A stretch of DNA of 64,000 bases, taken from contig CP129479.1 of NCBI GenBank assembly GCA_030583865.1, positions 1,760,819-1,824,818 on the forward strand, in the 5' to 3' direction. The notes under the pieces are model-generated. The model was not told the origin of the DNA, made no database searches, and saw only the letters and a program-made list of their open reading frames with translations. Origin of the DNA: Thermodesulfobacteriota bacterium (GTDB taxonomy: Bacteria; Desulfobacterota; GWC2-55-46). Shown one piece after another: positions 32,669-34,942 of the stretch (positions are counted from its first letter, which is position 1; the number at the start of each line of letters is the position of its first letter). A program made the position numbers and the translations under genes.

Positions 32669-32697
32669 TTGACAATTTTAATCCCATTCAATAGAAT
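32669..32697 (+). promoter_or_regulatory. Sigma-70-type promoter of the cytochrome/ANTAR unit
   Basis: TTGACA at 32669-32674, a 17-base spacer, then TAGAAT at 32692-32697. This is one mismatch from the full consensus and predicts a start of transcription near 32704, about 520 bases before the cytochrome start codon. Confidence 0.8.
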
Positions 32698-32703
32698 GGG
32701 CTG

Positions 32704-33224
32704 ACTTATATATAATCAAGACCAGAGAGGCTTCAAGTGAGAAGAGAGGGTCATACAGAACCCCAGGCAGTTATTTTCCACAAAGGCGCAAAAGACTATT
32801 GCCTTTTTATGCGTTAAGGCGCATAGAAGGGCTTTTTTTTTGAACTCACACCTTCCGCTGTCAAAAAAATTAGTAGGGGTTCCAGAAGGTTTGCCCCTTA
32901 ACGAGCTGAAACAGGGCCGGACGTAGCTCAAGGCGGGCTGCCCGGCTTTTTGAAGCCATGCATGTCGGTTTGCTCGGCACCTTTGAAGCAATGACCTGAC
33001 ATTGCCGCTTGAACAATTACAGCCGGAGCCCATGAAGGGCTCCGGTGTCAAGGCCACGAATGCCTCGCAGTATCGCCGATTTCATATCGGCATGCTCAAG
33101 GCATTTTTTTTTGGCCTTGGGCGGCCCGCTGCATGCGGGACCTGAGCAGTGTTCATGAAACGGCCCTGCGAAGGTAGGGGCCTCGACGCCCCCTCAACCC
33201 ATAAACGACTAAAGGAGAACTTCC
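32704..33224 (+). promoter_or_regulatory. Long structured 5' leader of the multiheme cytochrome gene
   Basis: No gene is supported here. The leader contains several hairpins in order: CTTC-AAGTGA-GAAG near 32732-32745; two mutually exclusive folds around 32783-32812 (AAAGGC...GCCTTT against CGCAAAAG...CTTTTTATGCG); ATGCG-TTAAGG-CGCAT; GCAATG-ACCTGA-CATTGC near 32989-33006; CCGGAGCCC-ATGAA-GGGCTCCGG near 33022-33044; and the terminator at 33059-33112. CTTGA (33008-33012) can pair with TCAAG (33048-33052), which competes with a CAAGGCC/GGCCTTG stem. The organisation resembles a riboswitch or protein-controlled antiterminator. The class could not be matched to any riboswitch consensus I know. 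Confidence 0.6.
33059..33112 (+). terminator. Internal terminator (attenuator) in the cytochrome leader
   Basis: AATGCCT (33059-33065) pairs exactly with AGGCATT (33099-33105), enclosing the hairpin GCCGAT-TTCAT-ATCGGC, followed by a run of nine T. It lies about 112 bases before the cytochrome ATG and downstream of the predicted promoter, so transcription must pass it to express the gene. Confidence 0.75.
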
Positions 33225-34127
33225 ATGAAAAGGTTTCTCATATTCGCAGTAGCAGCCGCTTCAGCTGGCTTCATAGCCCTCGGCACCGCCTCGGTCGCCA
33301 ACGCGGTCGACGTCGACGACTACCCGGCTGATGCTCCGGCCAACGGCATAGGCAAATCCAGGCACAACCTCGGTGCCCTGGGTATGCACAGGATCGCCGA
33401 CGAAATACCCGGCACGACCGAGATATGCGTGTTCTGCCATACGCCTCACCATACGAACGTGACCGGGTTCGCCGCCGGTGAGGCAGCGCCCCTCTGGAAC
33501 AGGACCAACTCCACAAGTAGCTACACCCCCTACGGCCCGAACGGCGCAACCGTTGGCGGCACCACCGTCACACAGGTCGGCGGCGCAACGCTCGCCAGCC
33601 TGAGCTGCCATGACGGCGTCACCACCTTCGACAACCTGGTGAACGCGCCCGGCAAGGGCCTTAACTCGGGCAGCCAGGGCTGGAACTTCAACGAGGACGG
33701 AAACCCGATCGGCAACGGCATAACTGGCAGCTCCCGCCTGAACATCGGCACGGACCTGACGAACGACCACCCGGTCTCAATCGAGTACATCGCCCCGAGG
33801 GCCAGCTTGAGGGACACGTCGACGACGCTCGATTCGATAGACCTCACCTCTGACGTCTTCTCGACGACCCACAGCGCGATCACCACAAACCTCAACCAGA
33901 ACCGCTGGGCGGTCAACGGTTACATATGCGCGGACTGCACCATCGAAACCCTGCTCAGGAACGGCAAGGTCGAGTGCTCCAGCTGCCACGACCCGCACTT
34001 CGCCAACAAGTCCTGGGACGAGGTCGACGACACCTGGGGTAGCGAGGATGACTCGGACGGCATGTTCCTCAGAAGGGTCGGCGGAAACACCGGCTCCGGC
34101 GTCTGCAAGACCTGCCACGCGAAGTAA
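33225..34127 (+). CDS. Periplasmic multiheme c-type cytochrome
   Basis: Electron carrier, 300 aa. Signal peptide at 1-27 (cut after ANA). Canonical CXXCH heme sites: CVFCH at 68-72, CSSCH at 251-255, CKTCH at 294-298. A fourth site reads SLSCH at 125-129 (followed by DGVTTFDNL), where homologues I recall have CLSCH; one base change (TGC to AGC) would remove the first cysteine. A fifth pair, CADCT at 235-239, lacks the His. Isolated His residues near 74-76 and in CHDPHF may be axial ligands. The family resembles small Geobacter-type cytochromes with APLWNR and doubled-CXXCH-like segments. A clear ribosome binding site (AAAGGAG) precedes the ATG. The gene is preceded by a long leader and followed by two ANTAR genes. 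Confidence 0.9.
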   Translation: MKRFLIFAVAAASAGFIALGTASVANAVDVDDYPADAPANGIGKSRHNLGALGMHRIADEIPGTTEICVFCHTPHHTNVTGFAAGEAAPLWNRTNSTSSYTPYGPNGATVGGTTVTQVGGATLASLSCHDGVTTFDNLVNAPGKGLNSGSQGWNFNEDGNPIGNGITGSSRLNIGTDLTNDHPVSIEYIAPRASLRDTSTTLDSIDLTSDVFSTTHSAITTNLNQNRWAVNGYICADCTIETLLRNGKVECSSCHDPHFANKSWDEVDDTWGSEDDSDGMFLRRVGGNTGSGVCKTCHAK

Positions 34128-34154
34128 GCTTTTCGCTCTGCCGTGCAATCCGGA

Positions 34155-34180
34155 GCGGGCCGGGGTTTCCCCGGCCCCGC
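34155..34180 (+). repeat. GC-rich hairpin between cytochrome and first ANTAR gene
   Basis: GCGGGCCGGGG and CCCCGGCCCCGC flank a three-base loop about 27 bases after the cytochrome stop. It has no T-run, so it looks like an mRNA-stabilising or processing hairpin rather than a full terminator. Confidence 0.55.
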
Positions 34181-34207
34181 CCGGTTGTACAAGGACCAAA
34201 AGACATC

Positions 34208-34519
34208 ATGCATACAGCCAGGACGAACCGAAACCAAATGAGCGGAAAATCGCACCGAAAGACATGCAAGCCGTTAGCCGAACTCCGCGCTGAAATAGAC
34301 CGGCTCAAGCTCGAACTCGAGGAGAAACGGGTCGTGGAAAAGGCCAAGGGGCTTCTCGTAAGCACCAAGGGCGTAACGGAAAGAGAGGCTTGCGAACTGC
34401 TTGAGAGCTTCTCGATTGAACACAACAAGACCCTTATTGAAGCCGCGGAGATCATACTATTCGGTAACAGGCTGCTCAAGCCGGTATCGCGGCGGCGGAA
34501 AGCCAAAAGAAAACAGTAG
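34208..34519 (+). CDS. Small ANTAR-domain protein 1
   Basis: ANTAR domains are short three-helix RNA-binding modules that stabilise antiterminator hairpins in nascent mRNA (NasR, AmiR, EutV). Here residues ~25-90 match: LAELRAEIDRLKLELEEKRVVEKAKGLLVSTKGVTEREACELLESFSIEHNKTLIEAAEIIL, that is, a coiled-coil helix then the AKG.L....G.tE.eA..LL...S....KtL.e.A pattern. There is no receiver or sensor domain, and the tail is strongly basic (RRRKAKRKQ). At 103 aa it is a stand-alone ANTAR protein. The start may be 34208 or the ATG at 34238; AAGGA lies 13 bases before the first. It lies 80 bases downstream of the cytochrome and upstream of a second ANTAR gene. Confidence 0.78.
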   Translation: MHTARTNRNQMSGKSHRKTCKPLAELRAEIDRLKLELEEKRVVEKAKGLLVSTKGVTEREACELLESFSIEHNKTLIEAAEIILFGNRLLKPVSRRRKAKRKQ

Positions 34520-34612
34520 GGGATCAGTGCTGCGAAAGCGGCTCCACCCGGGTTGGCATGCTTTTATGAAAATGTAACGGCCCTCAACATTCGAACAGGG
34601 AGGGATACGGAA

Positions 34613-34942
34613 ATGGAGAACTGCAATCAGCATGGGAACTGCAACTTCCCTCGCAGCATATGCGAGAAGATATGCACCGCTTACATAAACCTCTCGTCGG
34701 AAGCCGAAGTCATAAGGGGAAAAATAGGCGAGAAAAACCTGGTCAACAAGGCCAAATGGACCTTGGTTGAGCAGAAAGGTCTGAGCGAGAAGGAGGCCCT
34801 CGGCATCATGGTGAGGGAAAGCCGCAAGAAAAGGCAGAAGCTGGCCGAAACCGCGGCGCTGGTACTGACTGGAAAGGCCATCGAAGAGCCTTATGCGAGC
34901 GCACGGAAGCTCCAAAAGTCATCCGGGGTCCAGGCGGGCTGA
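34613..34942 (+). CDS. Small ANTAR-domain protein 2
   Basis: Second stand-alone ANTAR-type protein. The ATG at 34613 follows GGGAGGG; the upstream ATG at 34553 has no such site. Residues 1-25 carry four cysteines (MENCNQHGNCNFPRSICEKIC), possibly a metal or redox site, then helix SSEAEVIRGKIGEKNLVNKAK and the ANTAR core WTLVEQKGLSEKEALGIMVRESRKKRQKLAETAALVL. It aligns with protein 1 over the core (NKAKWTLVEQKGLSEKEA against EKAKGLLVSTKGVTEREA). The cysteines could let it respond to redox state or metal, which would suit control of a cytochrome. Length 109 aa. Confidence 0.72.
   Translation: MENCNQHGNCNFPRSICEKICTAYINLSSEAEVIRGKIGEKNLVNKAKWTLVEQKGLSEKEALGIMVRESRKKRQKLAETAALVLTGKAIEEPYASARKLQKSSGVQAG

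Follow-up and report, generated by a model that had tools for sequence, protein, structure and literature searches.

How is a cytochrome gene controlled when it is preceded by a long leader with a strong terminator and followed by two small genes for ANTAR proteins? The locus in question lies in a 64,000-nucleotide stretch of DNA (the window), part of the complete 2.75-Mb genome (G000) of an uncultured deltaproteobacterial lineage, whose relatives compared here are mostly MAGs. The original prediction, made from the sequence of the window, was that the two ANTAR proteins act on the leader of their own transcript as a self-contained RNA switch.

The cytochrome operon and its leader

All features of the operon lie on the forward strand. 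The near-consensus promoter that had been predicted at 32669–32697 is present: it is of the sigma70 type (TTGACA-17-TAGAAT), matches at 11 of 12 positions, and its position is kept in the leaders of three relatives (G001, G002 and G004), with only 1.3 promoter-like sites of any score expected in this stretch. The ensuing leader of ~520 nt (~32704 to 33224) is structured as proposed, its folding being stronger than that of 100 out of 100 shuffled sequences (z −4.2). It matches no Rfam family at the gathering score, and the weak matches in related loci also fall below it. Matches to PyrR and the L10 leader over the first terminator were dismissed as chance, with scores far below gathering.

The gene that follows (33225–34127) encodes, as predicted, a multiheme cytochrome, specifically a tetraheme c-type protein (PF09699) related to OmcE (PDB 7tfs, E = 1.4e-11). 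Residues 38–193 are similar to the OmcE nanowire and have the same CxxCH layout there; however, the window protein is longer (300 aa). Between the cytochrome and ANTAR1 lies a very GC-rich hairpin, GGGCCGGGG-TTT-CCCCGGCCC (34157–34177), without a U tract, which may stabilize the cytochrome mRNA or set the ratio of gene products. Two stand-alone ANTAR genes in the same direction complete the operon, both scoring above the PF03861 cut-off of 27.3 bits: ANTAR1 (34208–34519; 46.6 bits), with an H-x3-C ahead of its coiled coil, and ANTAR2 (34613–34942; 40.9 bits), whose four-cysteine N-terminus (C4, C10, C17 and C21) is evident in the translation.

Two terminators precede the start codon. T1 (32801–32841), overlooked in the original prediction, is very strong, with a 14-bp stem followed by U9, and lies ~100 nt downstream of the promoter. 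It is conserved, with one compensatory stem-pair change (T-A to C-G) in G001a, and a different terminator occupies its place in G004. T2, the terminator that had been placed at 33059–33112, is recovered as the minimum-energy fold of 33058–33112 (GAATGCCT...AGGCATT plus U tract), with its 5′ arm at 33058–33065 and its U9 at 33104–33112.

Published ANTAR targets consist of dual hexaloops with A at position 1 and G at position 4, the second hairpin overlapping a terminator (PMC3369931). No canonical A1/G4 pair is found in the leader before T1 or T2. The two six-base loops that had been singled out do exist, as CTTC[AAGTGA]GAAG and GCAATG[ACCTGA]CATTGC, but are not the relevant element: one stem pair of the first is lost in G001a, and G004 carries a different loop at the place of the second (AATGC[CAGTAA]GCATT). 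The relevant pair is instead P1/P2, with loops of an AnG type.

A dual hairpin overlapping terminator T2

This element emerged from a comparison of the leaders of homologous cytochromes, which share a block directly preceding the terminator. In the window, leader alignment and folding place P1 at 33022–33046, with the loop AUGAA (AnGRN class), and P2 (AGGC[CACGAAU]GCCU) at 33051–33065 after a 4-nt linker, the 3′ arm of P2 being the 5′ arm of T2. The consensus comprises P1 (GGYUC[ANGRN]GGGYC), the linker and P2 (GGC[NAYGR(A)U]GCC), with the 3′ arm of P2 starting the terminator; A-N-G-R is common to both loops, that of P1 having 5 nt and that of P2 6–7 nt. Forty leaders can be aligned, so that the comparative search proposed as a check finds the dual hairpin kept before homologous cytochromes, with the loop G's and the GG...GCC of P2 invariant or nearly so. 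An additional P1-like hairpin, GTAGCTC[AAGGC]GGGCTGC, is present at 32923–32941, its loop and core being identical in G001a and G004.

Covariation in P1 is well above expectation, with 49 double-changed cells compared with 20.4 in shuffles (reached in 0 of 500), and also exceeds slid controls. P1 plus P2 is the best fold of an RNA ending at 33066 and of one ending at 33098, and is overtaken by T2 once the 3′ arm of T2 has been transcribed (−46.3 versus −39.2 kcal/mol). P2 alone would therefore lose to T2 and would need a binder. Among 34 fetched matches, chosen without regard to terminators, a terminator overlaps P2 in 27, compared with 65 of 1,360 random positions (4.8%). Within the 64-kb window, both strands considered, the pattern with an overlapping terminator occurs once, at this leader, and in none of five shuffles.

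Two features that define published ANTAR targets are thus found here, namely two adjacent small hairpins with a linker within the range of 2–25 nt and, in the window and in 27 of 34 matches, a second hairpin that excludes an intrinsic terminator; the third, hexanucleotide loops with A1 and G4, is absent, the window loops being AUGAA and CACGAAU. The proposal of an ANTAR-type switch accordingly holds for the dual hairpin and its exclusion of the terminator, but not for the hexaloops that had been named. In comparison with the ANTAR antiterminators of EutV/eutP, NasR/nasF and AmiR/amiE (PMC3369931, PMC8934654), the likeness extends to two small hairpins with matching loops and a short linker, to the overlap of the second hairpin with the 5′ arm of an intrinsic terminator, and to ANTAR genes being encoded both within the operon and elsewhere in the genome. 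By contrast, the loops of the window type have A and G two positions apart, the element stands at OmcE-like cytochromes instead of chiefly at nitrogen genes, and the candidate regulator described below has altered contact residues. Judged by sequence and architecture, P1/P2 is putatively a relative of the established ANTAR switch that uses another loop code.

The name of the TwoAYGGAY RNA (RF01731) suggests two loops like AYGRAU and is a lead only; its model, of 168 positions, has no match in the source genome up to E = 10.

A small-molecule riboswitch, or an RNA-binding protein of another kind, might also use such a hairpin pair. The element spans only ~47 nt, however, and consists of two tiny, similar hairpins with no pocket-like conserved core; it has no Rfam match, and its architecture is the same as that of ANTAR targets (PMC3369931), all of which makes this reading improbable. 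Control by CsrA/RsmA through ANGGA-like loops deserves consideration because some of the loops are ANGGA, CsrA is encoded in G000, and weak matches, far below gathering score, link the window leader to rsmX and related loci to CsrC/RsmZ. Yet A is as frequent as G at the fourth position of the loop, so that GGA in the loop is not a consistent feature, and CsrA was not detected in motif-bearing G009 and G034 (both 100% complete), nor in G008, G015, G017 and G018. On these loop statistics and absences CsrA was rejected as the regulator, and we regard its involvement as very unlikely.

Distribution of the motif and its regulon

A covariance model (R1), which has this operon among its training sequences and gives rough E-values, matches at E ≤ 0.05 in 35 of the 48 genomes of the order. 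At E ≤ 1e-3 there are 68 matches, 52 of which lie within 750 nt, directly upstream of OmcE-like cytochromes; for at least 4 others the downstream cytochrome gene is truncated at the end of a contig, which brings those at cytochromes to at least 56 of 68. Most OmcE-like cytochromes of the lineage are preceded by the P1/P2 pair. A further 6 of the 68 matches precede orthologous genes for PocR-domain proteins, with 5 more such matches at E = 1e-3 to 0.006. The source genome has three sites: the present operon, the leader of another cytochrome (2142140) and that of the PocR-domain gene (487296), the last scoring only E = 0.08 alone but better in its orthologues.

The PocR-domain gene at the last of these sites (L242) and its orthologues (L215, L216, L222, L226, L230 and L241) share the same dual-hairpin leader, and a probable ATPase gene follows; the PocR-domain protein is likely a sensor under the same control as the cytochromes. 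A weaker match (E = 0.008) lies upstream of a PilZ-domain gene at L235 (G008:C63). Another OmcE-like paralogue is encoded 47 bases to the left of the window (G000:C1:1759873–1760772, reverse strand), with no motif found upstream of it.

A phylum-wide sample of 297 genomes contains only four that match at E ≤ 5e-4, each of them a member of this order, and none of the roughly 285 genomes sampled outside the class has the motif. A terminator ahead of a gene can be a leftover of an upstream operon, and the leader with its terminators could in principle be ordinary RNA structure without regulatory function. The covariation, the recurrence of the element both at paralogues that are not linked and in the leaders of PocR orthologues, and its absence outside the class argue against this and leave it exceedingly improbable.

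Candidate regulators and a model of control

Four ANTAR domains are encoded in the source genome: ANTAR1, ANTAR2 and two REC-ANTARs elsewhere, here called A and B. In the structure of EutV with RNA, the key contacts are made by Y164, R168, M172, N173, R175 and R177, and G4 alone is read as a base (PMC8934654).

That ANTAR1 and ANTAR2 antiterminate their own leader in a closed positive loop, as originally envisaged, draws on three observations: the same operon recurs in G001, G002, G004 and the genus g6 (G010, G019 and G027) as well as in G000, ANTAR2-type proteins retain a basic RKxR stretch, and extra AnG hairpins occur in the leaders of ANTAR-linked operons. The G001 copy (L045:9200–15000) contains many genes that appear frameshifted; since these include the neighbours, sequencing errors probably account for the broken copies of the cytochrome and ANTAR genes, and reading the syntenic copy as a pseudogene was rejected. 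Against self-control, in most of the ~35 genomes with the motif no stand-alone ANTAR gene lies beside it, and the EutV contacts Y164/R168/M172/R175 are not kept, being C/E/I/N in ANTAR1 and L/V/R/R in ANTAR2. The predicted switch thus keeps its ANTAR-style dual hairpin, but its self-containment is unlikely because stand-alone ANTARs are mostly absent and ANTAR1 and ANTAR2 lack the RNA-contact residues of EutV.

In a tree, stand-alone ANTARs form two clades. A cysteine at the start of the coiled coil keeps its register in 13 of 13 aligned proteins, with a cysteine or histidine four residues before it in 12 of 13. A structural model of ANTAR2 places C17 and C21 (C17-x3-C21) on a long helix (14–55), and its top matches in the PDB are the ANTAR proteins EutV/AmiR (probability 1.0, but E about 0.02–0.03). 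ANTAR1 and ANTAR2 have no receiver, its place being taken by the C/H-x3-C pair; from their sequences they are probably local feedback modulators and perhaps redox-sensitive; that they sense a metal or a thiol is a guess.

REC-ANTAR A has the features of a canonical regulator, with F/Y164, M172 and R175 kept in 21 of 21 sequences. It adjoins porin-amt and glnK genes, and the leaders of both carry A1/G4 hexaloop pairs, so that a canonical ANTAR system co-exists with the AnG-loop motif in the same genome. These textbook dual hexaloops, each followed by a T tract, lie at L248:5791–5835 and L248:8571–8613 (~193.8 and ~196.6 kb of G000). A strict scan for canonical pairs plus terminator returned none in the window or near A; it missed the amt/glnK pairs because their terminator register differs, and a looser scan found both.

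REC-ANTAR B (G000:335431–336021; PF03861 79.8 bits) consists of a receiver and an ANTAR domain, as do NasT/EutV-type proteins, but differs from these at four positions, where R, M, K and R are replaced by Q168, Q172, E174 and N175, a set invariant in 50 of 50 orthologues. The EutV contacts Y164/R168/M172/R175 are accordingly not kept (F/Q/Q/N). The gene is not near the motif, and no kinase gene was seen beside it. When only genomes of 90% completeness or more with a motif match at E ≤ 0.01 are counted, B is present in every one except G061 (90% complete), which has A only, whereas A is missing from motif-bearing G040 (99%) and G017 (93%); a few incomplete motif-bearing genomes have no detected B. 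This co-occurrence is suggestive only, since B also occurs in families where motif matches are few or absent (f4) and G061 has the motif without B. B is nonetheless the best candidate, because A, CsrA and the stand-alone ANTARs are each missing from some or most motif-bearing genomes, and we infer that it drives antitermination at the cytochrome leaders. Motif conservation, P1 covariation, P2/terminator overlap, regulon membership and the protein features are computed directly; the choice of B rests on elimination, not proof.

We therefore favour, with some confidence, a model in which the leader is an ANTAR-type attenuation switch with an altered loop code, served by B in trans and tuned locally by ANTAR1 and ANTAR2. 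Without an activator, T2 would form, as its fold suggests, and transcription would halt before the cytochrome gene. A regulator that binds the two hairpins through their similar loops would hold P2, which occupies the 5′ arm of T2, and polymerase would continue into cytochrome-ANTAR1-ANTAR2. B would act in this way on many cytochrome leaders and on the PocR-domain gene, and ANTAR1 and ANTAR2 may form pairs, either with B or between themselves, to adjust the switch locally, probably through negative or redox-gated feedback. T1 falls outside this model and counts against it.

A bolder version, possible but doubtful, is that an orthogonal ANTAR–RNA pair, distinguished by a loop code of its own, runs a regulon of cytochromes for extracellular electron transfer, and that the cytochrome-ANTAR1-ANTAR2 cassette closes a redox loop, with C/H-x3-C binding a metal, an Fe-S cluster or a disulfide such that the antiterminator follows electron flow. 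If the attenuation model is true, ANTAR regulators would be split into two specificities co-existing within one genome, with A1/G4 hexaloops near nitrogen genes and AnG loops at cytochromes, and the ANTAR–RNA recognition code would become testable through swaps of residues and loops. It would also suggest a receiver-less, possibly redox-sensing form of ANTAR protein, and would provide the OmcE-like cytochromes of the lineage with a common regulatory switch. This uncultured bacterial group appears to use the motif to switch its electron-exporting cytochromes on and off.
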